From Halobacteriales archaeon YIM A00010 (GTDB lineage Archaea > Halobacteriota > Halobacteria > Halobacteriales > Haloarculaceae): DNA of 63,437 bases. A program made the translations under genes and the position numbers. Below are positions 4,431 to 52,688 of this stretch, piece after piece. How positions within the stretch are numbered: the stretch's first letter is position 1; each line of letters opens with the position of its first letter. Where the stretch lies: the NCBI GenBank assembly GCA_025041175.1, contig JAKCFJ010000005.1, forward strand, positions 1-63,437. The letters are read 5' to 3'. Under the pieces are notes generated by a model that was not told the DNA's origin, did not search any database, and saw only the letters and a program-made list of their open reading frames with translations.

Positions 4431-4811
4431 TTACCAATCAGCCTCTTTGACCGAAAGGACGTTGTAGCGGAATTTCCACTTTTTCTCGGCTATCAACTCT
4501 GGTCGCGCGCGAATCCGGTGGGTCGCCTCGACAGCAACACCTTCACCGTTACCGATAGCAGGATCGTGTGCGTCGCACATCGTCTTGTGCATCCACTGAG
4601 TCAGTGTATCTCCCTCAACATCCACGAAAATCGTGAGAGTATTCGGCCAAATCTCGCCGTCTTCGGGACGGTCTTGGCTGTCGAGCGAATAACATGCATC
4701 GCACGTCGGCGGTCCCATTGATATTATTTGTTCGATACGATTTGTTATTGATTCAATAGCGCGTCGTTCATCGTCCGATTCTTTTTCTACTGTCGTATCT
4801 GATTCCGACAT
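4431..4811 (-). CDS. Small accessory protein with a CxxC pair, transcribed from promoter module A
   Basis: 126 residues. It begins MSESDTT, the same first seven residues as the product of 5576-5932, because the upstream DNA and first codons are a perfect duplication. A CDAC motif lies near residue 40 and further Cys/His residues (MCDAHD) follow around residue 85, so a metal site is possible. The rest reads as beta-rich. The start at 4811 is fixed by the conserved leader and the shared N-terminus. Leftward transcription from module A under a structured leader. Function not recognised. Confidence 0.7.
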   Translation of the reverse strand: MSESDTTVEKESDDERRAIESITNRIEQIISMGPPTCDACYSLDSQDRPEDGEIWPNTLTIFVDVEGDTLTQWMHKTMCDAHDPAIGNGEGVAVEATHRIRARPELIAEKKWKFRYNVLSVKEADW

Positions 4812-4926
4812 GGGTATTCTCCAAAGAAGCCCGGTCGGACGTGCTGGAACACGTTCCGGCCTATCTTTCTGACCGGCGTCCCGCGCTTCCTATTTACACC
4901 AATGAGTGCCACCTACTTATTCCTTT
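4791..4926. repeat. 136-bp perfect direct repeat, copy 1
   Basis: Identical base for base to 5912-6047. It covers the first seven codons of the leftward gene, its whole leader and the left promoter flank, and stops at the edge of the palindrome. The identity indicates a recent duplication or gene conversion of the promoter/leader unit. Confidence 0.9.
4812..4905 (-). promoter_or_regulatory. Structured 5' leader A- (upstream of 4431-4811)
   Basis: Between the promoter and the ATG lie about 90 bases with nested complementarity, given in + strand coordinates. Outer stem: GAAGC 4826-4830 with GCTTC 4885-4889, continued by CCGGTC 4831-4836 with GACCGG 4871-4876. Inner stem: GGAAC 4846-4850 with GTTCC 4853-4857. 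It is identical to leader B-. Most haloarchaeal transcripts are leaderless, so a folded leader is unusual. Confidence 0.7.
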
Positions 4927-4966
4927 CGGTATTCCCCTAAGGGAATTCCATTAGGGAAATACCGAA
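4925..4966. promoter_or_regulatory. Palindromic operator A in a divergent promoter
   Basis: A 42-bp near-perfect palindrome (19 of 21 positions match), centred on GGAATTCC with outer arms TTCGGTAT/ATACCGAA and inner CCCTAA/TTAGGG. It sits between divergent genes 4431-4811 and 5030-5149. A TATA-like TATAAGTGG follows on the right and AATAAGTAGG on the left. The core recurs in modules B, C, E and F. Confidence 0.85.
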
Positions 4967-5029
4967 GGGTATAAGTGGATATAGTCCGTTGGTATAGATG
5001 TGGCCGGGAGGCCATGGAGGTGACAAACA

Positions 5030-5149
5030 ATGCCCAAATGCGATCATTGCAATCTCGACCGGTCGAAGTATGAGGAAAGGTTCAGAACTGGAGACTTCGG
5101 GAAATGGAAAACTCTCTGTGAAGACTGCTACAGAGAGTTAATCAAGTAG
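5030..5149 (+). CDS. 39-residue double-CxxC zinc-finger protein
   Basis: A short gene: ATG at 5030, TAG at 5147-5149. It begins MPKCDHC and ends with LCEDCYRELIK, giving two CxxC knuckles about 28 residues apart, the layout of a single treble-clef or zinc-ribbon domain. A strong Shine-Dalgarno sequence, GGAGGTGA, lies eight bases or so upstream, which is rare for haloarchaea and supports the start. It is the rightward gene of divergent module A. Such tiny zinc proteins are common in haloarchaea; the role here is unknown. Confidence 0.75.
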   Translation: MPKCDHCNLDRSKYEERFRTGDFGKWKTLCEDCYRELIK

Positions 5150-5161
5150 TAGGTGGGGTTC

Positions 5162-5181
5162 CCTCAGGCCCAATCCTGAGG
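5162..5181 (+). terminator. Hairpin downstream of the 39-residue gene
   Basis: CCTCAGG (5162-5168) and CCTGAGG (5175-5181) form a perfect 7-bp stem with a six-base loop, thirteen bases after the stop at 5149. No T-run follows immediately, so terminator function is tentative. Confidence 0.45.
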
Positions 5182-5224
5182 CCCGCTAATCCAGAGTAGA
5201 ACAGCATAGATATTCATTTTTTCG

Positions 5225-5485
5225 TTACGAACTCGGTGTTTCTATCATCTCTTCCTCGACGTATTGGCGTTCTATCACAACTTGATCGACTACAAATTCT
5301 CCTGTTTCGAGGAGGAACAGCCGTTTTTGCACGAGATACCCCTCTTCATTCCTTCCAAAGGATCGAACAGCATGACATTGAGCATCTCCATCAGCGAAAT
5401 ATCGCGCTTCAATAGTCCATTGATCTCCCCATCGCTCGGTCGCTTCATCTTTTAACTGGTTGATCTGGGTGTCGAGATTGCTCAT
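5225..5485 (-). CDS. Small acidic protein, function unknown
   Basis: 86 residues from the ATG at 5485 (MSNLDTQINQLKDEATERWG). A short helical N-terminus is followed by a beta-rich domain with one Cys. An upstream in-frame ATG about 45 bases earlier is possible, but the added residues look unnatural. It lies 90 bases downstream of 5576-5932 on the same strand and is probably the second gene of that operon. No family recognised. Confidence 0.65.
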   Translation of the reverse strand: MSNLDTQINQLKDEATERWGDQWTIEARYFADGDAQCHAVRSFGRNEEGYLVQKRLFLLETGEFVVDQVVIERQYVEEEMIETPSS

Positions 5486-5575
5486 ATCGATTATTATGTG
5501 GAGAAGGGCCTGTGTGTTTCGGCTGCCCATCTCGCATACCGCCAAGCTACCTTGAACGGTCAGCTATCCCCTCCC

Positions 5576-5932
5576 TCAGAACGGCTGGTTTTCGAAGATT
5601 TGTACGGGAGAAATAGCAAGGACTTTGTTATCTTCTCGCTCGAGTTCAACATATCGCTGTGCGTATTTCTCGGCTGTTCTACGCTGGCAAACACCAACTG
5701 CCTTTTCCTCGAAGAGAATCCCAGCAGCCTCGAACACAACGTCACCATCTGATTCTTCGCCGTCTTGTGCCGTAACTGTATGTTCGGTGAATTCGTTGGT
5801 GATCGCCACCGCGACACAAACCGGCACGTCCTCGGCAGCCTCCCATGCTCCGGCAATCGCTGGAGCATTAAAGTTGACATCGGTTTCTGGCGATTCCTCG
5901 TCTTTAACTTCTGTCGTATCTGATTCCGACAT
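5576..5932 (-). CDS. Small accessory protein of promoter module B
   Basis: 118 residues beginning MSESDTT, shared with 4431-4811 through the upstream duplication. After about 20 acidic residues comes a compact alpha/beta sequence (APAIAGAWEAAEDVPVCVAV) with two Cys residues that do not form a CxxC. The last 40 residues include a helix rich in R, Y and E. The start is set by the leader, identical to leader A-. Function unknown. Confidence 0.7.
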   Translation of the reverse strand: MSESDTTEVKDEESPETDVNFNAPAIAGAWEAAEDVPVCVAVAITNEFTEHTVTAQDGEESDGDVVFEAAGILFEEKAVGVCQRRTAEKYAQRYVELEREDNKVLAISPVQIFENQPF

Positions 5933-6047
5933 GGGTATTCTCCAAAGAAGCCCGGTCGGACGTGCTGGAACACGTTCCGGCCTATCTTTCTGACCGGCGT
6001 CCCGCGCTTCCTATTTACACCAATGAGTGCCACCTACTTATTCCTTT
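5912..6047. repeat. 136-bp perfect direct repeat, copy 2
   Basis: Identical to 4791-4926 at an offset of 1,121 bases. It contains the first codons of 5576-5932 and structured leader B-. Confidence 0.9.
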
Positions 6048-6186
6048 CCCTATTTCCCTAATGGAGTTCAATTAGGGAAATACCAAAGGGGTTAAGTGGA
6101 TGGGGACTGTAGAAGTAACTGAGAAGCGCGGGACACGATGGGTATAGGAGCACCCTGCCGGGCTTCTCGAAAGGAGCAAGAAAACC
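5933..6186. promoter_or_regulatory. Divergent module B: leader B-, palindrome 6051-6082, leader B+
   Basis: Leader B- (5933-6026) copies leader A-. The palindrome at 6051-6082 has arms TATTTCCCTAAT and ATTAGGGAAATA. To its right the TATA-like GTTAAGTGG is followed about 25 bases later by leader B+ (about 6119-6186). Outer stem: GAGAAGC 6121-6127 with GCTTCTC 6162-6168. Inner hairpin: GGGT 6140-6143 and ACCC 6152-6155, enclosing a TAGGAG loop. AAGGAG (6171-6176) directly after the outer stem could serve as ribosome binding site for the ATG at 6187. Confidence 0.75.
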
Positions 6187-6603
6187 ATGTCGAGCACAAC
6201 GCCAGACGGTAAGAAAGCCAGTGAATCGAACAACGAGAAATCTCTCCTCGTAGCGCTCGATCAAGGAAACAAAACGGAGGCCAAAGAGCACGCTCGGGAG
6301 CTGTGGTACGAGCGCGACACACACTCTGTTGAGTGTGATGGTAGTACGATCGTAGTGGATAAAGAGGGCTTTCGCGCGTATTTTTCGGTCATAGTCGATA
6401 AGGATGGTGCTTTTCCATCCAGTGTTGGAGAGGCAACGTTTGAAATTCATGACCAGCGGGGTTACTACCTTCTTGAAGAGATCGAAGTAGAGCCGGGATC
6501 GAGGAATCTAGTGGACCAAATGAACGAGGCAGTACAAGGGGTTATAGACGCACGGAAGGAACGTCGTGATCGAAGGCGGGAATTCCGTCGTTCTGTCCTT
6601 TAG
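6187..6603 (+). CDS. Small charged protein, function unknown
   Basis: 138 residues. A polar N-terminus, then a mixed alpha/beta centre (GFRAYFSVIVDKDGAFPSSV) and a strongly basic C-terminal helix (DARKERRDRRREFRRSVL) that could bind nucleic acid. The start is placed by the leader B+ ribosome binding site. It is the only rightward gene of module B; the next gene points leftward. No family recognised. Confidence 0.7.
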   Translation: MSSTTPDGKKASESNNEKSLLVALDQGNKTEAKEHARELWYERDTHSVECDGSTIVVDKEGFRAYFSVIVDKDGAFPSSVGEATFEIHDQRGYYLLEEIEVEPGSRNLVDQMNEAVQGVIDARKERRDRRREFRRSVL

Positions 6604-6712
6604 ACGGAGTAGCCTGACCTGCATTTCGACAGCTTGTTTTTGTTTTCTATCGGTGGAGAAAACGGTGTAGTGGTGAAAAATAGGCGACGGTTGATACCGT
6701 TCAATCGGAGGA

Positions 6713-7150
6713 TTACCGATGTTCTCCGGTTCTCTTTGCTGTTCGCTGCCACAAGGTCCATTCGTCGAGTGTCGTTGCCTCTACGCAGGTGGGACAGGGG
6801 AACTTTGGTCCGATCGGACCATCGCAGATTCGAGCGTTCCCTGTCGGACAGGGATTTTCGTGTGCATAGTTGACCACTTTGGCAACGATCTCACTTTCCA
6901 CACCTTCCGTATGGAACGCGACGATCGCGGCTTTGATGAGGTGTTTACAAATTATTTCTCTGTATTGGTAGTCTGGGCATCCACATACAGCCTGCCGAAG
7001 ATCCACCGTATACGTGGAGCCATCGTGATGGACTTCCCACATGTTCGGAGCTATTTTTTCAACGTATATCTGTTCTGTACATGCTCGCTCAAATCGGTCG
7101 TGGTCGATGTGATCACAACCGTTTTCACTTCGGTCTAGCGTAGTACTCAT
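6713..7150 (-). CDS. SWIM zinc-finger protein
   Basis: 145 residues from the ATG at 7150. Residues about 50-77 hold a SWIM-type pattern CGCPDYQYREIICKHLIKAA, that is CxC followed after about 11 residues by CxH. SWIM domains bind zinc and mediate DNA or protein contacts; in haloarchaea small SWIM proteins are common on mobile elements. Two further Cys pairs lie near the C-terminus (PCPTCVEATT). An open extension to 7261 would run through the structured leader, so the internal ATG is preferred. Leftward gene of module C. Confidence 0.8.
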   Translation of the reverse strand: MSTTLDRSENGCDHIDHDRFERACTEQIYVEKIAPNMWEVHHDGSTYTVDLRQAVCGCPDYQYREIICKHLIKAAIVAFHTEGVESEIVAKVVNYAHENPCPTGNARICDGPIGPKFPCPTCVEATTLDEWTLWQRTAKRTGEHR

Positions 7151-7394
7151 TGGCTTTCTTGCACCTTTCGAGAAGCCCGGTGGGGTGCTCCTACACCCTG
7201 CCACATTTCTGTGACCACCGACCTTCTCAATCACACCTACGAGCGCGATCCCCTTAAGCATTTCCCTAATGGAGTTCCATTAGGGAAATAACGAAAGGAC
7301 TAAGTGGGTGGGAGTTGTAGAAGTAATCGAGAAGCGCGGGACACGATGGGTGTAGGAGCACCCTGCCGGGCTTCTCGAAAGGTGCAAGAAAACC
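7151..7394. promoter_or_regulatory. Divergent module C: leader C-, palindrome 7260-7289, leader C+
   Basis: The palindrome 7260-7289 matches at 14 of 15 positions (arms ATTTCCCTAATGGA). Leader C- in + coordinates: outer stem 7170-7183 with 7215-7228 (14 positions with one mismatch and one wobble), hairpin CACA-TTTC-TGTG at 7202-7213, hairpin GGGTG 7183-7187 with CACCC 7194-7198. Leader C+: outer stem GAGAAGC 7329-7335 with GCTTCTC 7370-7376, inner hairpin GGGTG 7348-7352, loop TAGGAG, CACCC 7359-7363. CGAAAGGAC then TAAG to the right of the palindrome fits an archaeal BRE/TATA pair. Confidence 0.8.
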
Positions 7395-7697
7395 ATGTCG
7401 AAAGCAAACACGACGAGCGAAAAAAATAAAGAATCGCCGGAAACCGACCACTGGGGACAGCTAGTTATCTTCCACGACGATCCTGCGACGGGAGCAGGAG
7501 AACGATGCGAATGCCAGCAATGCGGAGAACGGCTCAATGTCGCGCTTGTCGGGGGAACCGATCCCAATACAGAGAGCGACAAGTATGAGGAGTTTTACGT
7601 GTGCCAGATCTGCGGCGCGAAGGGGACCCACCGCGTTAACGGCAGCAAGCGGAACTGGACCGGCATGATGGCCTATCCGGAGGTGAACGACCGATGA
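7395..7697 (+). CDS. Small four-cysteine protein, paralogue of 8137-8451
   Basis: 100 residues. Two zinc-knuckle pairs: CECQQCGE near residue 40 and CQICGAKG near residue 75, the pattern of a zinc ribbon. Residues about 20-42 and the C-terminal WTGMMAYPEV are nearly identical to those of 8137-8451, including long runs of identical DNA, so these are recent duplicates. It overlaps the next gene by ATGA. The structured leader C+ precedes it. Function unknown. Confidence 0.75.
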   Translation: MSKANTTSEKNKESPETDHWGQLVIFHDDPATGAGERCECQQCGERLNVALVGGTDPNTESDKYEEFYVCQICGAKGTHRVNGSKRNWTGMMAYPEVNDR

Positions 7698-7825
7698 GAC
7701 GAATTGAGCAGGTTTGTGTGATTGGGTTGATCAGTCTGTTTGCACTTGTTACAATCGGTGAAATTGATGTTTTCACTGGAACGATGCTGGCAGCTATGCT
7801 GATCACGGCGGACCTGATCGGCTAG
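7694..7825 (+). CDS. 43-residue single-pass membrane protein
   Basis: Starts at the ATG overlapping the previous stop (ATGA) and ends TAG at 7823-7825. Residues about 7-22 (VCVIGLISLFALVTIG) and 29-42 are hydrophobic, giving one or two short membrane segments. Translational coupling with the zinc-ribbon gene upstream is likely. Role unknown. Confidence 0.55.
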   Translation: MRRIEQVCVIGLISLFALVTIGEIDVFTGTMLAAMLITADLIG

Positions 7826-7840
7826 CTACCAGTCGTTACG

Positions 7841-7930
7841 ATGGGTACGGGCGAATACCCAGAACCGACAGTTTGGGACGGGTGGCCGTCCGTATGTGTT
7901 TGGAGGGACGCTATCTCTTGGATGGACTAA
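7841..7930 (+). CDS. Possible 29-residue peptide
   Basis: ATG at 7841, TAA at 7928-7930, fifteen bases after the preceding gene. It is Trp-rich (four Trp in 29 residues). No ribosome binding site is evident. It may be a real small operon member or chance; low confidence. Confidence 0.25.
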   Translation: MGTGEYPEPTVWDGWPSVCVWRDAISWMD

Positions 7931-8002
7931 TGGCCCTCAACTGTGATTGTGATGGTTCTGGATGTTCAACTAATTTATAACTTTCTCAATCGCCCCTACC
8001 CA

Positions 8003-8136
8003 CTTCCCTAAAGGAAATGCTTAAGGGGATCGCGCTATTAGGTGTAATTGAGAAGGCCGGGACGCTCTGGGAGTAATTCTCAGAGAAACTCGGGGTGATG
8101 AGAACACCCCGAAATCGGCTTTCTCGGTGACTTGCA
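8003..8136 (+). promoter_or_regulatory. Module D: decayed palindrome and leader D+
   Basis: The palindrome (8003-8028) is degenerate here, and no leftward gene is present, so this is a one-sided module. Leader D+ folds fully. Outer stem GAGAAGGCCG 8050-8059 with CGGCTTTCTC 8116-8125 (one G-U). Hairpin CTCTG 8065-8069 with CAGAG 8081-8085. Hairpin TCGGGGTG 8090-8097 with CACCCCGA 8105-8112. GGTGA (8126-8130) six bases before the ATG matches the archaeal Shine-Dalgarno core. Confidence 0.8.
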
Positions 8137-8451
8137 ATGCAATCGAGGAAAGCCAACTCGAATTCGGCGGAGCATCGACAAGAAAGTATCGAACGCCCTG
8201 ATCGAGATCGCTGGGGCCAGCCAGTGATCTGGCACGACGATCCCGCGACGGGAGCAGGAGAGCGATGCGAATGCCAGCAATGCGGAGAACAGCGGAACAT
8301 CGTACTCGTCGGGGGAACTGATCCCAAATCCTCCGGAGAGAAGTGGGAGGAGTTTTATCGGTGTCGATGCGGCGCAGAAGGGTCACTTCGCGTTAACGGC
8401 AGCCGGAGCTGGACCGGCATGATGGCCTATCCGGAGGTGAGCGACCGATGA
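8137..8451 (+). CDS. Small four-cysteine protein, paralogue of 7395-7697
   Basis: 104 residues. It shares with 7395-7697 the central HDDPATGAGERCECQQCGE block, the GGTDP motif and the C-terminal WTGMMAYPEV. The second knuckle is CRCG rather than CQICG, so the metal site may differ. It overlaps the next gene by ATGA, heading a four-gene operon (8137-9677). The leader D+ ribosome binding site supports the start. Confidence 0.75.
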   Translation: MQSRKANSNSAEHRQESIERPDRDRWGQPVIWHDDPATGAGERCECQQCGEQRNIVLVGGTDPKSSGEKWEEFYRCRCGAEGSLRVNGSRSWTGMMAYPEVSDR

Positions 8452-8588
8452 GCGACGAGGTGAAAGAGACCCTGACCGACGACGGTCGGATCGTGGTCTA
8501 TTCGTTGGATGAAGACGGCGAGGAGCCAGCCGACACGGACCAGTGGATGGCGTCAAACCTGACGGTCTCAGGGAGTGGTAAGGAATGA
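8448..8588 (+). CDS. 46-residue acidic protein
   Basis: ATG overlaps the preceding stop; TGA at 8586-8588 overlaps the next ATG. Sequence is acidic with a short beta-like stretch (GRIVVYSLDEDG). It is coupled on both sides, which supports translation. No family recognised. Confidence 0.55.
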   Translation: MSDEVKETLTDDGRIVVYSLDEDGEEPADTDQWMASNLTVSGSGKE

Positions 8589-8746
8589 GCCGAGATCGAG
8601 GATGGCATGGGGAGGAAAATCCACTAGTATGTCCTCATCCATCAGAACAGATAAAAAAATGCACAGAAGATCTGCCGGACGGACGGACGAAAGTGGAACG
8701 GCTCTGTACAAGGTGTCACGCACACCTCGGAACGACGTATGAGTAG
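8585..8746 (+). CDS. 53-residue protein with zinc-binding pattern
   Basis: ATG at 8585 overlaps the previous stop; TAG at 8744-8746. It contains CPHP and a later C followed by LCTRCHAHLG, giving a CxxCxxH-type group. It is probably a single small zinc domain. Third member of the 8137 operon. Confidence 0.55.
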   Translation: MSRDRGWHGEENPLVCPHPSEQIKKCTEDLPDGRTKVERLCTRCHAHLGTTYE

Positions 8747-8777
8747 CTGACTACTTTTCTTCATTTTTCACCGATTC

Positions 8778-9677
8778 ATGCATTCAGGACATCCACCCAC
8801 CGAGCGCGCCAGCTCGCTACAGAACGCCTCGTCCGACGAACAGGAGAGTATCGAAGTACCCGCCCGCTATGCCCGAGAGATCCGAGCACGGGAACAATTG
8901 CACGACCGCTGTCCCGTCGACGTGTATGTTGCTGGCATCAACAACCGATATAGCTGGCCGTACCGTCTTATTGCAGCGAATAGAGCACGACCGAGTATCA
9001 GCGACACGAGTGCGACGGTGATCGTTGATTCGGTCGTCAATGATCCATATTACTCGGTCGAGGACATCCTCGATGCTGCGCACCGACTCGATGCAGACTA
9101 CGTTGTTGGCAAAGACTGGCCGAAAGAGGCGCATCCAGCGGACGATGGCATTCATCCAGCCGATGCATACGACCACTTCATCAGCAAGTACAAGCGGCAT
9201 CCATGCGATGTCGAGGTGATCGTTCCGCTCATTCCCCCGTTCGACGCGCAGATGATTGACCATTTTTCAGATGTCGATTACTTTGCTCTCGGCGGGATGC
9301 GTGATTTCAGCCCTGAGCGGCAGGTGACACTCATCAGGCAGTTTCGAGAGAACGCTGGATACGACGTTGACGTACATGGGCTTGGTGTCGGAACCTCGGT
9401 CGAGCTGATCGCCGCGATTCGAGAGTCAATCAGTGAGGACCCACAACGACCGCTTCTCGACAGTTTCGACATTTCAACGCCTGAAACGGCGGTGTGTAAC
9501 AACAAGATCCCAACGAAACGCTGGCAACAACAGCGCGTCCTCCTGCCAACGGGCGACGACTCAACGACTGTTCGAGCAGGCTTCTCCGAGGCGATCGCGC
9601 GGATGCTAGAGTACGAGCTGACGCCGGAGTGTGATGACGAGATGTTCGAAACAGCTGGATTCGCCACTCTCTTCTAA
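8778..9677 (+). CDS. Probable TIM-barrel protein, function unknown
   Basis: 299 residues. After a polar 40-residue N-terminus the sequence alternates strands and helices: VDVYVAGINNRYSWPYRLIA, ADYVVGKDWP, DVEVIVPLIPPF, DYFALGGMRDFSPERQV, DVHGLGVGTSVELIAAI. The order, and the pattern of a repeated plasmid-search for a strand ending in a G-rich turn, resembles the barrel of tRNA-guanine transglycosylase-like and DpdA-like proteins seen on haloarchaeal elements. I cannot identify catalytic residues with certainty. It lies 31 bases after the small zinc gene and is likely the last gene of the operon from module D. Confidence 0.6.
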   Translation: MHSGHPPTERASSLQNASSDEQESIEVPARYAREIRAREQLHDRCPVDVYVAGINNRYSWPYRLIAANRARPSISDTSATVIVDSVVNDPYYSVEDILDAAHRLDADYVVGKDWPKEAHPADDGIHPADAYDHFISKYKRHPCDVEVIVPLIPPFDAQMIDHFSDVDYFALGGMRDFSPERQVTLIRQFRENAGYDVDVHGLGVGTSVELIAAIRESISEDPQRPLLDSFDISTPETAVCNNKIPTKRWQQQRVLLPTGDDSTTVRAGFSEAIARMLEYELTPECDDEMFETAGFATLF

Positions 9678-9856
9678 CGGCAGCAACCAGAACCACCGAT
9701 ATTCACCAGACAACTCTCTCCGCGTGGTGCTAGTCTTCTGTTCAGAAGGTCGGTTTCTGGTGAGTCACCGACCAAGGATAGGACATCCCGCAGGCACGCA
9801 AGAATGTCCGATCGAACGTAGCACTCGGTCGATGATAAATCCACAGAAAGAGGAAC

Positions 9857-10237
9857 CTACTGCAAGACCACCCAAAAACCAGGATATTCGGTCTTCAACC
9901 ACGATGTACCACGGCTGCTGTATGCATCGAAAACATCTTGAAGGTCTTCCATCGGATCGGTTGCTGTATCATCAATAACCGACTCGTACTCATCGCCCTC
10001 CGAATAGAATGCCTCTCGCCTGATGTGTCCTGTAGGCGTTTCCCGGAACTGCCACTTCGCACCGTTTTTGAAGACGATCGTGGCCTGTTCATCCCTGAAT
10101 ATGTCCGGAGGAACGATGAACTCCACACCCGGATATCCATCTGTTTCGACATCCTGAGTTGTCTCCTCCGGAGCGTGAGGCACGAGCTGCTCAATACGAC
10201 CGATACTTTTCTCTACGTCTGGCTTGTTGGATATCAT
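9857..10237 (-). CDS. Small protein related to 17556-18065
   Basis: 126 residues from the ATG at 10237; the longer frame to 10297 would read through leader G. The central part (ATIVFKNGAKWQFRE then REAFYSEGDEYESV) aligns with the centre of the product of 17556-18065 (ARLFFEGGAWLQYRE, YEEMFNSNGEQIESF), so both belong to one small beta-rich family. Zinc cysteines present in the relative are absent here. Function unknown. Confidence 0.65.
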   Translation of the reverse strand: MISNKPDVEKSIGRIEQLVPHAPEETTQDVETDGYPGVEFIVPPDIFRDEQATIVFKNGAKWQFRETPTGHIRREAFYSEGDEYESVIDDTATDPMEDLQDVFDAYSSRGTSWLKTEYPGFWVVLQ

Positions 10238-10335
10238 GGTGTTCAACGCTTGCGGAGCTGCGAGTTGAGAACACCACCGTTCGGGTGTTCTGAGCACCCG
10301 GACACCTTCACGCGTCAGGCGGTGTTCGGTGCTTA
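10238..10335 (-). promoter_or_regulatory. Structured leader G- (upstream of 9857-10237)
   Basis: In + coordinates GAACACCACC 10269-10278 pairs with GGCGGTGTTC 10318-10327 (one G-U in the RNA), enclosing hairpin GGGTG 10283-10287 with CACCC 10295-10299. The stem sequence differs entirely from the other leaders, but the layout is the same. The tail near the ATG (CTCGCAGC, GTTGAACACC) matches that of leader H at 52.5 kb. No palindrome of the TTTCCCTAATGGA type accompanies it. Confidence 0.75.
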
Positions 10336-10478
10336 TATCTAGTTACTTGATAATAAAACCATCGGTAGAAGGTAGGGAAATGTGCTGGGTAGCGTTCTCT
10401 ACTGCGTATGTCTAATACATCTTATCGTATATATAGAAGTAGCAACAGTGAGGTAAAATGGGGAAAGGACCTAGACGA

Positions 10479-10643
10479 TCACTCTAGACAGCCAGTGAAA
10501 TGCTTGTTACCAAACTCGGTGATCGTCATCGTTCCAGTACTGTCACAGTCAGGACACGCGTACCGCTCGAACATCGAGTTTTGCCCATAGCTACCGTCTT
10601 GGACAACGACCGCCCCACCACAGTTGTTGCATTGAAGACTCAT
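10479..10643 (-). CDS. 54-residue zinc-ribbon protein
   Basis: ATG at 10643 overlaps the stop of the upstream gene (ATGA). It begins MSLQCNNCGGAVVV and continues to YACPDCDSTGTM, a two-knuckle zinc ribbon with 20-odd residues between the CxxC pairs. A third Cys is near the C-terminus. Second gene of the leftward operon from module E. Zinc ribbons of this size are common, and their role is generally unknown. Confidence 0.7.
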   Translation of the reverse strand: MSLQCNNCGGAVVVQDGSYGQNSMFERYACPDCDSTGTMTITEFGNKHFTGCLE

Positions 10644-11032
10644 CGGTCGCTTACCTCTGCTGGCGGCGAGCTGTCGAGGATCGTGTTGGACCCGACCTCG
10701 ACGTGTGGAGGGACACGATTGGCCGTGAGAAATGCGAGTGCATGGACTTCTCCGGGTTCCGTGGCCTCACCGTCTCCGAGTGGGCCACAGTCGTGGCAAC
10801 TGATCCATCGCAGTGACCACCCGTCACGGCAGTTGCCCGTTACATAGAGATACGCGATCGCCGTTTCACCGTCGGTGAGCTGCTGGATAGACGTGATTCC
10901 CTTGTTGCAGGAATCACAGATCACATCCCCCTCCGGCGTTCCGGTCGGAGTCCCCTGGAGATCCGTCCACGACAGGGAGTCGATACTTTCTTTGCTATTC
11001 TTCTCGTTTTCCGACGTGGTTTTCTCGTTCAT
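10640..11032 (-). CDS. Small protein with two CxxC pairs
   Basis: 130 residues from the ATG at 11032. The longer open frame would run through the conserved leader. CDSCNKG (near residue 40) and SCHDCGPL (near residue 78) flank a beta-rich segment (TAIAYLYVTGNC), suggesting one zinc domain. The C-terminal 40 residues have a low-complexity acidic end. Leftward gene of module E, coupled to the zinc ribbon at 10479. Function unknown. Confidence 0.7.
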   Translation of the reverse strand: MNEKTTSENEKNSKESIDSLSWTDLQGTPTGTPEGDVICDSCNKGITSIQQLTDGETAIAYLYVTGNCRDGWSLRWISCHDCGPLGDGEATEPGEVHALAFLTANRVPPHVEVGSNTILDSSPPAEVSDR

Positions 11033-11223
11033 TGGCGAAGCCCGAGAAAGCCGCGTTCGGGGTGTCTCTAGCACCCCGATTCTCTGAGACGTTCCCCCAG
11101 AGCACCGGCCTTCTCAATTACACCTAATAGCGCAACCAACTTATAATCTTCGGCATTTCCCTAATGGAATATCCTTAGGGAAGTAACGAAAGGTTTAAGA
11201 AGATGGCTGTTGAATAGTGTAAT
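11033..11223. promoter_or_regulatory. Divergent module E: leader E- and palindrome 11157-11186
   Basis: Leader E- in + coordinates: outer stem GAGAAAGCCG 11044-11053 with CGGCCTTCTC 11106-11115; hairpin TCGGGGTG 11057-11064 with CACCCCGA 11072-11079; hairpin CTCTG 11082-11086 with CAGAG 11098-11102. The palindrome 11157-11186 has arms ATTTCCCTAATGGA and TCCTTAGGGAAGT. On the right, CGAAAGG followed by TTTAAG is a textbook BRE/TATA, and the ATG at 11224 lies where transcription should begin. The rightward message is therefore leaderless while the leftward one has a long leader. Confidence 0.85.
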
Positions 11224-11466
11224 ATGGCAGAAGACGATAGCCATCCAACGCGGTTTACAGAACAGTACAGTACCGACGATGTACGTGCGGTTTTCGATGA
11301 GATTCCCGGTCCGGCACTCATCGCAGCGGATGTACGTGACGAGCTGGGCTGTTCTCGGGATACTGCGCGGAACAAGCTAGGCGAACTGCACGCCGAGGGG
11401 GTTGTCGAGACTCGCGAGAAAGGCCGTGTGACCCTGTGGTGGCTGGCTGAGGAGGCAAACCAATGA
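11224..11466 (+). CDS. Small winged-helix regulator
   Basis: 80 residues. A winged helix fills the whole protein: ALIAADVRDELGCSRDTARN is the helix-turn-helix, followed by KLGELHAEGVVETREKGRVT as the wing. The message appears leaderless (see module E). It overlaps the next gene by ATGA. Its position directly next to the palindrome makes it a candidate binder of that operator and of its relatives in other modules; this is inference. Confidence 0.8.
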   Translation: MAEDDSHPTRFTEQYSTDDVRAVFDEIPGPALIAADVRDELGCSRDTARNKLGELHAEGVVETREKGRVTLWWLAEEANQ

Positions 11467-11879
11467 GTAGAAACGCTGTAAAGCTAGTTGAGAGTTGGGA
11501 TTCCTATTACGATACGGGGTTACTATCCCCACTCGCATCGAGCGACGTAGCGGCGGTGTTGTGCGAGGGGAACAAGTACACCGTCTTGCTCCCGGACGGA
11601 ACAGAGGAAATCGTTGACGGTGATTCCTGTACGTGCGGGCATGAGCGCGAGGATGAGAAGACTGGGATGGGCACCGAAGCTCGTCAGGGCTGGCAAAACC
11701 GGCTGGCTGCATCCTGTGACCACCAGAAGGCAGCGCTCCAAGCTGTCGATGTCGGTGGAGGCTGTTCTGAATGTGGAACGCTAGCGGTTGAGAAAAAAGA
11801 CCACACAGACAAGTACGAAAACGTGCTCATGCAGTCGTTTTCGTGTGCAGGCTGTGGTGCTGAGAGAACAGGGCAATGA
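11463..11879 (+). CDS. Cysteine-rich accessory protein
   Basis: 138 residues. CTCGHER near residue 57 and CDHQ near 82 resemble a SWIM-like or zinc-binding arrangement, and CSECGT with CAGCGAE form a further zinc ribbon at residues about 99-134. It is probably two metal-binding modules. Coupled by ATGA on both sides, within the four-gene rightward operon of module E. Function unknown. Confidence 0.65.
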   Translation: MSRNAVKLVESWDSYYDTGLLSPLASSDVAAVLCEGNKYTVLLPDGTEEIVDGDSCTCGHEREDEKTGMGTEARQGWQNRLAASCDHQKAALQAVDVGGGCSECGTLAVEKKDHTDKYENVLMQSFSCAGCGAERTGQ

Positions 11880-11953
11880 CTGAAACAGTCACGATCGACC
11901 TCCCGATCGAGGAGGAGATAGAGATCTCGATCGAGGTGGTTGGAGATGGGTGA
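11876..11953 (+). CDS. 25-residue acidic peptide
   Basis: ATG overlaps the preceding stop; TGA at 11951-11953 lies inside the start of the next gene. Sequence alternates acidic and branched residues (TVTIDLPIEEEIEISIEVVG), a beta-strand-like pattern. The coupling on both sides argues for translation, but the length makes it uncertain. Confidence 0.4.
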   Translation: MTETVTIDLPIEEEIEISIEVVGDG

Positions 11954-12158
11954 CGCTGACCGAATGCAGCAACTGCTCGACGGCGTTCGAGACGGGCAGC
12001 CACCCCGGTATCAGCTTGATCCCGACGAACGTGATCCGGTCTGCAACGAGACGGCTGATGAAGCGTGGATGACGTTCAAGCGACGCGGTCTCGTCAACCC
12101 ATTCCACGCCAAGGAGCTTCAGCGACGGCAAGACGAAGAACGCGCAAAGATCGAATAG
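11946..12158 (+). CDS. 70-residue charged protein
   Basis: Starts at the ATG 11946, overlapping the peptide gene by eight bases. Mostly helical and charged, ending in a K/R/E-rich helix (HAKELQRRQDEERAKIE). Last gene of the module E operon. No family recognised. Confidence 0.55.
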   Translation: MGDADRMQQLLDGVRDGQPPRYQLDPDERDPVCNETADEAWMTFKRRGLVNPFHAKELQRRQDEERAKIE

Positions 12159-12241
12159 GAGTGGTAGGGATGAATTCTCAAATGGGTGCAAAAAGCGATA
12201 TCACTTCGAAATAACAGCTTCTGTATCGGAAGCCGCGCAGC

Positions 12242-12625
12242 TTACTGCTCTGTCTCTTTTACATCGCTGCTAGACACGACAGCGGGACCCGGATTTACGA
12301 AGAATCCAGCCTTTGCTCTGTCGATGCTATTGAGCGTCCCTGCGTCGGTAACGATGCTTTGTTCTTTAGACGACATCACAACAACACCTGACCGATGCAT
12401 CCAGATCGAGACCCCGACTCCCGAGTGATGCCAGTGTTCATCATTCAGGCTCCCCGGAGTGCTAATTGCGTGGTCTCCCTGCTCAATAGCCGCTCGAACA
12501 CCATTTTTGAGTTCGATAAGCTGACGTGCCGTAAGTGCATCCGCTGGTGCCTCATCAGGATACACCCAGTTCAATAAGGCTGTCTTCTTTTCTTCTGTCC
12601 GCTCGACGTCGACATTTCCTTTCAT
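12242..12625 (-). CDS. Small accessory protein of module F
   Basis: 127 residues from the ATG at 12625; the longer frame to 12715 would translate the leader. An N-terminal helical part (ALTARQLIELKNGVRAAIEQ) is followed by a beta-rich half (GVGVSIWMHRSGVVVMSSKE). No cysteine pairs and no membrane segment. Leftward gene of module F. Family not recognised. Confidence 0.65.
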   Translation of the reverse strand: MKGNVDVERTEEKKTALLNWVYPDEAPADALTARQLIELKNGVRAAIEQGDHAISTPGSLNDEHWHHSGVGVSIWMHRSGVVVMSSKEQSIVTDAGTLNSIDRAKAGFFVNPGPAVVSSSDVKETEQ

Positions 12626-12872
12626 GACTTGCTCGAACCTCCGAGAAGCCCGGTGGGGTGCTCCTACACCCATCGTGTCCCGCGCTTCTCGATTACTTCT
12701 ACAATCCCCATCCACTTAGTCCTTTCTCCATTTCCCTACAGGATATCCCTAAGGGAAATACTTAAGGATGTCGCGCTATTAGGTGTAATTGAGAAGGCCG
12801 GTGCTCTGGGGGAACGTCTCAGAGAATCGGGGTGCTAGAGACACCCCGAACGTGGCTTTCTCTGGTCTCGCT
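12626..12872. promoter_or_regulatory. Divergent module F: leader F-, palindrome 12730-12759, leader F+
   Basis: Leader F- in + coordinates: GAGAAGC 12643-12649 with GCTTCTC 12684-12690, inner GGGTG 12656-12660, CACCC 12667-12671. Palindrome 12730-12759 has arms ATTTCCCTA/TAAGGGAAAT. Leader F+: GAGAAGGCC 12791-12799 with GGCTTTCTC 12854-12862; CTCTG 12804-12808 with CAGAG 12820-12824; TCGGGGTG 12827-12834 with CACCCCGA 12842-12849. The short-plan leader faces left and the three-stem plan faces right, the reverse of module C. Confidence 0.85.
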
Positions 12873-13262
12873 ATGAGAGAAGCCAAATCGACATCAACGA
12901 CGACGGAAGAAAAAGCTGAGGAATCGAACGGTGCGAGCGAGTGCGAAGTGGACGCCACCGAGGAGATGCGGGATCCTGAGTTTTGGCAACGGATCGCGCT
13001 TGAGGCAATCGTTAATGACGATCCAGCGAAGGCGCTTTCGCTCCGGGTTGAAGCGTACTTTGCCGATGCGAAGTGCCTCCCCCGCCAACGCGACACACTC
13101 CGGATCCGGAATATCGGCCATGAGGAACTATTCGAGTGGCTGATCACTCCGGGCTCTGAATTCGAATTTGAAACCATCGAAGAAGATACGCGGGGAGTGA
13201 TCGTGCGTGGTATCGAATACTCTCAATTCGAGGGTGAGTTCTCACCGGAGGGCGACCGATGA
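12873..13262 (+). CDS. Small accessory protein of module F
   Basis: 129 residues from the ATG at 12873 (MREAKSTSTTTEEK). The open frame extends upstream to 12789, but that part is the structured leader. Acidic N-terminus, then a helical and beta mixed domain (IALEAIVNDDPAKALSLRVE, RIRNIGHEELFEWLITPG). Overlaps the next gene by ATGA. Not recognised. Confidence 0.65.
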   Translation: MREAKSTSTTTEEKAEESNGASECEVDATEEMRDPEFWQRIALEAIVNDDPAKALSLRVEAYFADAKCLPRQRDTLRIRNIGHEELFEWLITPGSEFEFETIEEDTRGVIVRGIEYSQFEGEFSPEGDR

Positions 13263-20139: not shown

Positions 20140-22077
20140 ATGGTTTTTGAAATAGACACACAGCGTGAAATAGCCGCGAGTGCGGAGCTGTTTCGAGAAC
20201 GGGTTCAACAAGGACATACGGCTACTCATCCGACTCCGATAGAGATAGAGACCACTGACGTACCGAGTGAGGTGCTCAATGAGTGGCAAACGGCGCTTCC
20301 ATCAGGTGACGATCTAGCGGACTACTTCGAGCTGAGTGTATGGCCACCAGATGAGCCGCTTCCGAACTGGATTCCCGTGGTTGATTCGCTCATTCGGTAC
20401 GTGCTCCACGAATACGAGCCTTCAGAAGAATGCCCCAACCAGGAGGAGATTCCGTTCGTTCACATCTGGTGGTCGATCGCTGAATTTGCACGCCACCAGC
20501 TGCTTGATGTTGATGTTCCGGAATTCGTCCGCTCATCGTCCATGACAGACCTCCAGCTGTGGCTCGTCTCCCGACTCCAGACGCTTGGAGCGCAGGCACT
20601 ACACGTCGATTTCATGCACTACATTGCGGAGCACAATGCAACAGTCCTCACCGACGATCGTCGGGTTGCATCGTCCACGGACTGGTACGACACGTATGTT
20701 GACGCCGTTCTCAGCGGGCGGCTCACGAGTATTATTGAGGAATTCGCTGTACTTGCTCGGCGGCTCGTTTGTCTCTGTGAGCAGTGGGCGGCCGCCGTCG
20801 CTGAATTCATTGAACGGCTTGACGCGGATTGGCACGCGATCCGCGAAACGTTCGCTCTCGATGCAACCGCTGTCACAGGGCTAGCAACCGGGCTCGGGGA
20901 CCATCACGACGGGGGTCGAAGTATTATCACCGTCCAGTTCGATACCGGGACAGAAATCGTCTACAAGCCGCGATCAGTTCGGACGCAGGCAAAACTCCAG
21001 TCATTCACCGCGTGGTGTACGCAGACGTTGGCAGATTTCCCCGAGCTCGCACGCTGTGACCTTCTCGATCGGGGTGAGTATGGGTGGGTTGAGAAAGTAG
21101 AGTCGCGATGTCTAACAGCGGATGAGATCGAGGAATACTACTACCGATCCGGGGCGCTGCTCATGGTTCTGTATCTTCTCCACGGAACCGATTATCACTT
21201 TGAGAATATCATCGCTACCACCCGATCACCGCTCGTGATTGACAACGAAACCATCCTCCATCGAGAGCTTCCACTACAGGCGTTGCCCCGAGAGCGGCTT
21301 GGGGGCCGGGTGCTCGAATCGTCGATTCGAGATTCCGTTTTGAAGACGCTGCTATTGCCATTCTGGCGGATGCATATCGAGACGACGCGAACCGTGGAAG
21401 CTGGATTAGGATTCATTGCCCCGGAGGAGACGAACGAGCAGCTCGTGTGGACAGCCATCAACACCGACGCGATGGATATTACGTACGAGCGAGGCGAAGC
21501 AATCCCAGAGGACAACGCCCCTCGTACCAAGGACGGGGTTTGCCCGCCGAGCGAGTTCGTCTCAGAGATCGTGGCTGGCTTCGAGACGGCGTATCGAGCG
21601 TGTCTCGCCCACCGCGACGAGCTGGGCTCGACGATAACTGAGCTGTTTACCGGTTGTGAAACCCGGAATTTGATCCAGTCGACGAGCACGTATCAGGCTG
21701 CCCTCGATACGCTCACGACGCCGGCAAACCTACAAGATGGGATCGCACACGATGCGACGATGACCCGATACGAGCAGAAAGCCGTTGAACAGACCTCGGT
21801 CGGAGCCGTGAGTGTGGCGAACCCCTCGAAATGGTTGATGAGAGATGCCGAATACCGTGCGCTCCTCGCGGGTGATATCCCTCGATTCACCACGAAAACA
21901 GACGAGTTGCACCTCTACTTCGGAGGAGAGCCAGTCCTCACTGACGCGTTCGAACAGACCGGAATCGAGGCAGTACGAGCCCGTCTCCGACAGCTGTCAG
22001 TGGCTGATCTCCAGCGACAACAATCCCTGATCCGTGCCAGTCTGTACGACCGCTCTGTGGGAGACATCCCGGTGTAA
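20140..22077 (+). CDS. lanM: LanM-type lanthipeptide dehydratase (DUF4135), separated from its cyclase
   Basis: 645 residues. The LanM dehydratase signature is clear: VYKPRS (Lys 276, Arg 278), the GTDYHFENII motif (residues 349-358) and PLVIDNETILH (Asp 368, Glu 370). LanM dehydratases phosphorylate and eliminate Ser/Thr of the precursor. Normal LanM proteins are about 900-1100 residues with a fused C-terminal LanC domain. Here the frame stops at a TAA (22075-22077) before that domain, which resumes in the same frame at 22084. A one-codon interruption or a true two-protein enzyme are both possible. Confidence 0.93.
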   Translation: MVFEIDTQREIAASAELFRERVQQGHTATHPTPIEIETTDVPSEVLNEWQTALPSGDDLADYFELSVWPPDEPLPNWIPVVDSLIRYVLHEYEPSEECPNQEEIPFVHIWWSIAEFARHQLLDVDVPEFVRSSSMTDLQLWLVSRLQTLGAQALHVDFMHYIAEHNATVLTDDRRVASSTDWYDTYVDAVLSGRLTSIIEEFAVLARRLVCLCEQWAAAVAEFIERLDADWHAIRETFALDATAVTGLATGLGDHHDGGRSIITVQFDTGTEIVYKPRSVRTQAKLQSFTAWCTQTLADFPELARCDLLDRGEYGWVEKVESRCLTADEIEEYYYRSGALLMVLYLLHGTDYHFENIIATTRSPLVIDNETILHRELPLQALPRERLGGRVLESSIRDSVLKTLLLPFWRMHIETTRTVEAGLGFIAPEETNEQLVWTAINTDAMDITYERGEAIPEDNAPRTKDGVCPPSEFVSEIVAGFETAYRACLAHRDELGSTITELFTGCETRNLIQSTSTYQAALDTLTTPANLQDGIAHDATMTRYEQKAVEQTSVGAVSVANPSKWLMRDAEYRALLAGDIPRFTTKTDELHLYFGGEPVLTDAFEQTGIEAVRARLRQLSVADLQRQQSLIRASLYDRSVGDIPV

Positions 22078-23327: not shown

Positions 23328-24374
23328 ATGGCCACCCGTGGCGAACGGCTCGATACGCTTACCACTGCCTGTGACACCATCAGCTCACGCGCCCAACTTA
23401 CACCAGCCTCACAGTCCTCATCCGGGTTCGCCTTCTTCGTTAGGACAGGTGACAGCGACGCCACACCAACGTCTGTGTTAAAGCTCGCAAAGATCGACGA
23501 GGACGAGCCTGCCGCCAGTGAGATCTACCGAACGGCCCTTCCATCCGAAGCGACGGCTCTTCGGAATCTCGCGGTCGAAGCGACGATGCTCAGGCGGCTT
23601 GCGGAGACGGCCGTGCCCGTGCCGCCCGTGATCAGTCGCGTCACTGAGTCTGGTAGTGATCTTCCGCCCCACATACTGATGGAACACATTGACGGTACCG
23701 TGTTGTCGGAGACCGATGACTCGCTGTCGACGGCACAACGAAAACGAGTGATCGAGCAGCTCGGTCGCTATCTCGCATTCGTTCATGAGACGTTCTCGTT
23801 CGATCGGTTCGGTGAGTTGGAAGTGATCGATGACGAACTGCGAGTCACAGACGGTACCCATCGTTGGCAGGAACAGTTCGATGTCGAGATCGACCGAGCG
23901 ATCGCACGCCTCGAGGAGACACCACTCGCTGACCTTGCACCCCCAGCCCAGGAGTGGTACCACGATCGACGGAGCGATCTAAACCACCAATTCGAATCGA
24001 CAGTGATTCATACCGACCTCAATCCACTGAATGTCCTCGTCTCCGAAGCTGATGAGCCGGAGATCACAGCTCTTGTCGACTGGGAGGACATCATGGCTGG
24101 GCCGCCTGATCTGCAAGTCACGATCGCCGTCACGCTGCTTGATCGGCAGCTCACAGACCTCGATCCATCCACGATCCGAGCTCCATTTGTGAGCGGCTAT
24201 CGATCGATCCGGAATCTCCCAACGGGCTATGAGCAGCGCAGCGAACTGTATGAGTTGAGACAGTGGCTCCAGGCCTTCAGCAACCTCCAACCAGATCTCG
24301 ACACCACAGACGGGCGTGGAGCAGCCGTTGACCGATACGCCCGAGCCGCGTTTGAAGAGATCGTTGGAACGTGA
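23328..24374 (+). CDS. APH-fold kinase (aminoglycoside phosphotransferase-like)
   Basis: 348 residues. Kinase core motifs: HTDLNPLN (His 228, Asp 230, Asn 235) as the catalytic loop and VDWED (Asp 251) as the metal-binding motif, preceded by a glycine-poor ATP loop and EAT(ML)RRL helix. The family phosphorylates small molecules such as aminoglycosides, choline or homoserine. It begins 59 bases after the cyclase in the same direction; a role in resistance to or modification of the product is a guess. Confidence 0.85.
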   Translation: MATRGERLDTLTTACDTISSRAQLTPASQSSSGFAFFVRTGDSDATPTSVLKLAKIDEDEPAASEIYRTALPSEATALRNLAVEATMLRRLAETAVPVPPVISRVTESGSDLPPHILMEHIDGTVLSETDDSLSTAQRKRVIEQLGRYLAFVHETFSFDRFGELEVIDDELRVTDGTHRWQEQFDVEIDRAIARLEETPLADLAPPAQEWYHDRRSDLNHQFESTVIHTDLNPLNVLVSEADEPEITALVDWEDIMAGPPDLQVTIAVTLLDRQLTDLDPSTIRAPFVSGYRSIRNLPTGYEQRSELYELRQWLQAFSNLQPDLDTTDGRGAAVDRYARAAFEEIVGT

Positions 24375-52384: not shown

Positions 52385-52463
52385 CCCTGGTATCGCGAGA
52401 GATCCAATACGATGCTTGCTCTCCGTCGATGGTTTTATTGTCAGTGTACCCGATAAGACATAA

Positions 52464-52565
52464 GAGAGCGCCACTATGGGCACGTAAGGTGTCCGAGGTG
52501 TTGAGGCACCCCGAACGGGTGGCGTTCTCGACTTGCAGCTCGCAGCCACTGAGTGTTGAACGCCA
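52464..52565 (+). promoter_or_regulatory. Structured leader H+ (distant member of the leader family)
   Basis: GAGAGCGCCAC 52464-52474 with GTGGCGTTCTC 52519-52529 (11 bp, one G-U), enclosing hairpin GGTG 52497-52500 with CACC 52507-52510. The tail CTCGCAGCC...GTTGAACGCC matches leader G-. It is 40 kb from the other members and no TTTCCCTAATGGA palindrome is present, so the leader can move without the operator. Confidence 0.75.
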
Positions 52566-52688
52566 ATGAATTCTAGCAAACTACAGACGCAGAAACGTAT
52601 CGGTCGGAGAATCATCATTGATGAAGTTCCAGAAGAAGATCGAGACGGTTCGACGTGCCGGGTTCTGAATGCAATCTTCGGGCCGTAG
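52566..52688 (+). CDS. 40-residue small protein under leader H
   Basis: ATG 52566, TAG 52686-52688. Starts NSSKLQTQKRIGRRIIIDEV, basic then acidic. No known domain. Its conserved leader is the main reason to accept it as a gene. Confidence 0.6.
   Translation: MNSSKLQTQKRIGRRIIIDEVPEEDRDGSTCRVLNAIFGP

Follow-up and report, generated by a model that had tools for sequence, protein, structure and literature searches.

Do the folded stretches in front of small genes on a plasmid of Halobacteriales archaeon YIM A00010 belong together, and could they control the genes that follow them? The question is raised by a stretch of 63,437 nt (contig JAKCFJ010000005.1; "the window" below means this whole stretch), in which eleven leaders stand directly 5' of small open reading frames (ORFs): ten between 4.8 and 12.9 kb, some on each strand, and a further one at 52.5 kb. 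All were located where an earlier note, made from the DNA letters alone, had placed them. Judged by their sequences, the leaders form a single haloarchaeal family of structured 5' untranslated RNAs. We consider it rather probable that this family is an undescribed, widespread cis-regulatory RNA that acts as a two-state translational switch with a common trigger.

Structured leaders of small genes

The earlier note had described a shared plan consisting of an outer stem with inner hairpins. Both are present, but the actual plan is a three-way junction formed by the outer stem (P1), a variable hairpin (P2) and a GGGTG-loop-CACCC hairpin (P3). P3 usually consists of GGGTG or GGGGTG, a loop of 6-7 nt, and CACCC, while P2 is present in 8 of the 11 window leaders and absent from three short ones (genes 6187, 7395 and 12625; genes are named here by the coordinate of their start). 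The outer stems quoted in the note differ in sequence and pair as it described. Its hairpin GGGTG-TAGGAG-CACCC is found in the leaders of 7150, 7395 and 12625, with a near copy (GGGTA) in that of 6187, but the other leaders have a different P3 loop. The eleven leaders are listed below, "tail" denoting the bases in front of the start codon.

4825..4890, minus strand: leader of gene 4431-4811(-), with P1, P2 and P3; P1 GAAGCgCGG/CCGgGCTTC; tail AGAATACCC at 4812-4820
5946..6011, minus strand: leader of gene 5576-5932(-); duplicate of the 4811 leader, different gene
6121..6168, plus strand: leader of gene 6187-6603(+); short form without P2
7170..7228, minus strand: leader of the SWIM zinc-finger gene 6713-7150(-); ATG at 7150; tail AAGAAAGCCA at 7151-7160, complementary to the P1 3' strand GGCTT
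7329..7376, plus strand: leader of gene 7395-7697(+); short form without P2
8050..8125, plus strand: leader of gene 8137-8451(+); full three-way junction; complement of the P1 3' strand inside the ORF, GAGGAAAGCC, at 8145-8154
10269..10327, minus strand: leader of gene 9857-10237(-); P1 GAACACCGCC/GGTGGTGTTC; tail GAACACC at 10238-10244, ending at the ATG
11044..11115, minus strand: leader of gene 10640-11032(-); covariance model seed
12643..12690, minus strand: leader of gene 12242-12625(-); ATG at 12625; short form without P2
12791..12862, plus strand: leader of gene 12873-13262(+); possible alternative hairpin GGCTTTCTCT...ATG.AGAGAAGCC (12876-12884), AUG in the loop
52464..52529, plus strand: leader of the 40-aa ORF 52566-52688(+); P1 GAGAGCGCCAC/GTGGCGTTCTC; tail GAACGCCA at 52558-52565

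Compared with dinucleotide shuffles, the eleven leaders fold with z-scores of -3.1 to -5.9, and between 0 and 2 of 200 shuffles were equally good. Some leaders are copies of each other. Genes 4811 and 5932, which are different genes, are preceded by one duplicated leader; the duplication, at about 4790-4900 and 5911-6030, covers the leader and the first ~7 codons, so that these two cannot be taken as independent. The short leaders of 6187, 7395 and 12625 are near copies in front of different genes, as are those of 11032 and 12873, and the number of distinct leaders in the window is about seven. The occurrence of near-copy leaders before different genes suggests that leaders are reused as modules. 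The divergent genes 5030 and 11224 have a promoter region in common with leader genes, yet are without such a leader.

The earlier note had also pointed to ribosome-binding-like bases. Such bases (GGAG or GGTG, Shine-Dalgarno-like) do occur in the linker of 7 of the 11 window leaders, and across the family in 21 of 50 linkers compared to 9.8±2.5 in shuffled ones (Natrialbaceae and the chromosomal repeat left out).

Relatives and covariation

A covariance model built from three window leaders (R1) matched the leaders of 7150, 12625, 10237 and that at 52.5 kb in the window (E 0.015-0.21), and its matches in other contigs and genomes again showed TATA box, P1/P2/P3 and ATG in that order. As the fold is nearly symmetric, R1 sometimes matched the wrong strand, the true one being set by promoter and ATG; a second model (R2) has the strand correct. 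R2 comprises 16 members in N-padded rows, since MAFFT misaligned P1 and P2 on unpadded leaders, and the padding makes its E-values rough.

In the organism's own genome (5.97 Mb, 7 contigs), R2 matches about 35 places at E<=0.4, with 27 on the chromosome, 5 of the eleven leaders on this plasmid, and three on contigs C4 and C7. Four sister species have 14-23 matches each. Within the order Halobacteriales, matches occur in at least 66 of 392 genomes and at least 32 of 95 sampled genera, 12 candidates being scored per genome. The covariance search of haloarchaeal genomes proposed in the earlier note thus yields many relatives, and the note's placing of the leaders on small plasmid genes is valid for the window, but the family extends beyond plasmid genes. 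Outside the order, no match at E<=0.02 was found in a phylum-wide sample. A rigid P1 sequence pattern retrieved copies in the window and one unrelated match, nothing more, and a P3-only pattern applied to all prokaryote genomes gave matches outside haloarchaea that were mostly due to chance. No link to viruses emerged, full-length matches in viral contigs corresponding to bacterial (Caballeronia) sequence.

Support for P1 comes from a count on the named structure with slide and shuffle controls. Among 86 aligned members, all 11 P1 pairs are changed on both sides and 93.8% of cells pair, which bears out the covariation that the earlier note had seen in the outer stems. There are 250 compensatory cells, against 90.5±7.9 in shuffled and 26-38 in slid alignments, and the covariation score is 0.435, against 0.141±0.008. 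As this alignment was fitted to the P1/P2/P3 structure, the count from the earlier 16 members is also given (39 compensatory cells against 17.0±2.8). RNAalifold recovered P3 alone from the 86-member alignment, P1 being gapped across subfamilies. The P3 stem is near-invariant in sequence, with 3 of 6 pairs that never vary, and shows the compensatory changes GCGTG/CACGC and GAGTG/CACTC. Candidates L056, L139, L157 and L163 were left out as false or doubtful, and L110 is mis-framed. The family thus has a conserved structured domain in the 5' untranslated region (UTR) with compensatory changes, as is expected of riboswitches.

Hairpins are common in such GC-rich genomes, and one might suspect intrinsic terminators or chance structures. 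This is extremely unlikely in view of the z-scores, the covariation, the fixed position and the lack of matches outside the order in the phylum-wide sample. Intrinsic terminators were rejected on their own account, as no T run follows P1 in the linkers of the listed leaders.

The suggestion in the earlier note that the RNA may be undescribed is in accord with Rfam and with the literature searched. No Rfam 15 family exceeds its gathering threshold in the window, and when the 4.7-13 kb region was compared permissively with Rfam, nothing emerged beyond matches below threshold, all to unrelated families. No paper describing the leader family was found, a 2017 paper on 224 candidate structured RNAs lying outside that search.

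Promoter and predicted transcript start

All 86 aligned members lie on the strand that has the promoter upstream and the ATG downstream. In 141 oriented members (related paralogues included), the AT fraction peaks at 0.94-0.98 at positions -29 to -27 from the first base of P1, and this base is G or C in 93% of them. In the window, TATA-like sequences were assigned as follows, with distances from P1 base 1.

10351..10358, minus strand: TATA-like TTTTATTA, -31 to -24 (gene 10237)
11140..11146, minus strand: TATA-like TTATAAG, -31 to -25 (gene 11032)
52433..52439, plus strand: TATA-like TTTTATT, -31 to -25 (40-aa ORF)

The spacing from TATA box to start in archaeal promoters was used to place the transcript start. 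Because the TATA box lies at a fixed distance, the transcript should begin at or next to P1 base 1, and the 5' end of the RNA would then be locked in P1. The same fixed distance indicates that the leader is very probably transcribed.

A possible second partner for P1 at the start codon

The 3' strand of P1 has a second complement, in the bases that immediately precede the AUG, and the match ends 0-1 nt from that codon. About a dozen different matching sequences were found across members, such as (P1 3' strand/tail) GGTGTTC/GAACACC, TGGCGTTC/GAACGCCA, TGTCTTTC/GAAAGACA, TGGCCTT/AAGGCCA, GGGTTGT/ACAACCC, TGTCGTG/CACGACA and GGTTGTC/GACAACC. The mean run of complementarity is 5.28 with a member's own tail compared to 3.20±0.23 when tails are swapped between members with different P1 3' strands (0 of 10,000 swaps). 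An earlier, energy-based swap test on 18 members gave 13 of 20,000, and a wider one that includes the ORF start gave 6.00 against 4.56±0.19 (0 of 3,000). Across the compared members, tail and P1 3' strand covary. In 8137, 12873 and L012/L082 the complement is found just inside the ORF, so that the AUG would occupy the hairpin loop.

The minimum-energy fold contains P1 in 123 of 136 members, with a median advantage of 8.4 kcal/mol. When the P1 5' strand is blocked, 102 of the 136 form the alternative helix between tail and P1 3' strand (anti-P1), and P2 and P3 are mostly retained in the folds printed. Among the 45 members with a clear tail, there are 30 P1 mismatches at pair 7 or 8 with their 3' G paired by the tail, as if P1 were kept imperfect in favour of the alternative helix. 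The predicted P1 and anti-P1 hairpins are mutually exclusive, as in a translational switch, and the sequences therefore also hold what an expression platform requires, a competing helix at the start region. That folding could control translation, as the earlier note proposed, gains support from this AUG-adjacent strand complementary to the 3' side of P1.

A leader with a constitutive role should be considered here. It might protect the mRNA (for example from 5'-3' decay) or fix the level of translation, with no signal-dependent switch, and the tail complementarity would then have arisen incidentally as leaders were copied, or would serve ribosome standby. Such a role would fit a P1 that closes off the RNA precisely where its start is predicted and that exceeds the alternative by the 8.4 kcal/mol just mentioned, and it would also fit the functional mix of the downstream genes. 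However, protection needs neither a tail that tracks changes of the P1 3' strand nor P1 mismatches whose 3' G finds its partner in the tail; we regard a purely constitutive leader as quite unlikely.

The Natrialbaceae variant

A version with an unchanged core is found in Natrialbaceae (records including Natrinema, Natrialba, Halovivax, Halopiger and Natronorubrum). Here the linker is filled by a hairpin P4 (4.7 bp compared to 3.6±0.13 in shuffled linkers). A further hairpin, P5, is located inside the short first ORF at about ATG+19 to +38 (e.g. L113, L116, L135), as in GAGAC-AAAAAG-GTCTC and GGGA-CATAAACA-TCCC, and its stem covaries (GAGAC/GTCTC, GGGA/TCCC). Third codon positions are no more variable than others around P5, which suggests an RNA-level constraint on this ORF. 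At many loci, the short first ORF is closely followed, and sometimes overlapped, by that of a small CxxC-motif protein.

Downstream genes and chromosomal copies

The products of leader genes are small, and a second cistron often follows. At 66 of 102 loci, a crude regular expression detects a putative zinc-ligand motif in the first or second cistron, the rest being mixed or unassigned, and no common transporter or pathway theme was found among these downstream genes. Pfam assigns SWIM to several products, HNH/PadR to one, and has no match for most. For a rough contrast, in which size classes and criteria differ, PMC10716476 reports two C(P)XCG motifs in 43 of 282 H. volcanii micro-proteins and zinc fingers in 8% of archaeal small proteins.

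The organism's own chromosome (C1) carries at least 22 dispersed copies of a two-gene unit, encoding a 48-aa CPxCG protein and a protein of ~185 aa. Promoter and P1 are conserved in these copies (e.g. L061, L064-L068, L070, L072-L080, L083-L088), and the P3 loop is different in each of the 22 examined. A role of the variable loops as antisense addresses was considered, with free drift as the alternative.

Such dispersal, together with the reuse of leaders before different genes (4811/5932; 6187/7395/12625), is what one might expect of elements acting at the DNA level, namely recombination sites, transposon ends or protein-binding palindromes whose RNA fold is incidental. We consider this very unlikely. 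Each genuine member examined is flanked, on a single strand, by a TATA box and an ATG, the tail match is in fixed register to the AUG, and in the chromosomal copies the flanking conservation declines by degrees upstream of the promoter and has no sharp end. Integron attC-like sites were rejected, as the elements are 5' of genes, between TATA box and ATG, and not at cassette 3' ends (nearby integrases were not searched for).

The near-invariant P3 stem with a loop that differs in all 22 chromosomal copies, and the frequent zinc-ligand motifs among the products, would suit a host or plasmid RNA-binding protein that binds P3 (GGGTG/CACCC) or P2 and steers the RNA to P1 or anti-P1, some of the encoded zinc ribbons perhaps being binders themselves (autoregulation). 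The products, however, are unrelated (SWIM, HNH/PadR, many without Pfam match); autoregulation of one gene cannot cover all of them, and that by a single product was rejected for this reason. Protein control in general is a tentative possibility, and not an exclusive one, as it overlaps with the translational switch and would be a special case of it.

A proposed translational switch

In the switch that we favour, the P1 3' strand would pair either with the 5' end of the RNA (P1) or with the tail or first codons (anti-P1). Formation of P1 would leave the AUG free, along with the tail and any Shine-Dalgarno-like bases (ON). When P1 is opened, or never formed, its 3' strand and the tail would make a hairpin against or around the AUG (OFF). 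The balance would be set by something that stabilises or opens the P1/P2/P3 domain. Actual regulation by the leader RNA, and its trigger, are what we infer from these patterns. Because genes of unrelated protein families carry the same leader, a trans factor acting on all of them (metabolite, metal ion or host protein) seems likelier than autoregulation by each product. Metal or stress status is a plausible candidate for the cue, given how many of the products are putative zinc ribbons or zinc fingers of the SWIM type.

Several observations weigh against this switch. The assignment of ON and OFF is one that we infer from geometry. The tail match is weak or absent in 6187, 7395, 12625 and members of the L014/L028 type, and for members with the complement inside the ORF a downstream-only test was weak (178 of 3,000) and is not counted as support. 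In Natrialbaceae the match is mostly 3-6 bp (swap test 49 of 10,000), and the hairpins P4 and P5 are peculiar to this group. Since the predicted stability of P1 far exceeds that of anti-P1, a switch would depend on kinetics, a helicase or a factor. The energies were computed for 37 C and 1 M NaCl, while the host has molar KCl.

A more specific version would make the family a new haloarchaeal riboswitch class, in which a 5'-terminal three-way-junction aptamer recognises a metabolite or an ion (zinc or another metal, or else a cue from salt or redox state) and exerts P1/anti-P1 control over translation of zinc-ribbon small proteins, with some 25-30 copies in hypha-forming haloarchaea. In this narrow form we find it rather doubtful.

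Other features of the plasmid

A 29-bp palindrome, TTTCCCTAATGGA-N-TCCATTAGGGAAAT, is found between divergent promoters at five sites in the window.

4931..4960: palindromic operator-like site, divergent genes 4811/5030
6052..6081: palindromic operator-like site, divergent genes 5932/6187
7260..7289: palindromic operator-like site, divergent genes 7150/7395
11155..11184: palindromic operator-like site, divergent genes 11032/11224
12730..12759: palindromic operator-like site, divergent genes 12625/12873

A weaker copy is located at 8004-8029. Elsewhere in the 5.97-Mb genome there is none at <=3 mismatches (0 also for the reversed-pattern control). As the palindrome is confined to the plasmid, it is likely to be a plasmid-specific operator, which on this plasmid would probably add transcription control to that proposed for the leaders. 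One site adjoins the gene at 11224-11466 (+), which is without leader and codes for an 80-aa winged-helix-like protein with a weak DUF7342/HTH_20 match; this protein is a candidate regulator of the operator.

At 20140-22077 (+) and 23328-24374 (+) there is a strong match to DUF4135 (E 5e-97) near an APH-type kinase. DUF4135 is a domain of lanthipeptide synthetases, and this is possibly a peptide natural-product cluster.

Comparison with known systems

Reused modules of promoter plus stem-loop before small accessory genes are known as phage promoter early stem-loops. These resemble the leader family in their module reuse, but the structure in the present family is a junction whose P1 covaries and whose P1 3' strand has its complement in the tail, and no virus member was found.

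Translational riboswitches share with the leader family the location in the 5' UTR, a conserved junction domain and, after this domain, a helix competing for a switching strand by the start codon. In Archaea, a translational riboswitch shown experimentally is that for fluoride (crcB) in Thermococcus kodakarensis (cited in PMC8241225). Unlike these, the leader family has no Rfam match, its outer stem begins at the predicted first base of the RNA, and its genes are zinc-ribbon, SWIM or mobile-element-like and not those of transporters or biosynthesis.

Protein-responsive leaders, for example the ribosomal protein leaders of bacteria and archaea (20 candidates in PMC7247131), are likewise structured 5' leaders with covarying stems, and protein binding is plausible here as well. 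The present family differs in preceding many unrelated gene families; a ribosomal protein leader was rejected, as the downstream genes examined do not encode ribosomal proteins. Many leader-gene products resemble the haloarchaeal C(P)XCG zinc-finger micro-proteins; these are a protein class, for which PMC10716476, in its accessible part, describes no shared leader RNA.

Structured leaders are not typical of haloarchaea (PMC4983044), and as of 2021 a single natural riboswitch had been determined experimentally in all archaea (PMC8241225). That picture would change with a covarying leader that is widespread, being present in dozens of genera and amplified in one of them, and that seems to contain its own switch. 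The family provides a defined RNA and culturable hosts in which the response of the archaeal ribosome to RNA structure can be tested, and it may reveal what many small haloarchaeal zinc-finger proteins respond to.

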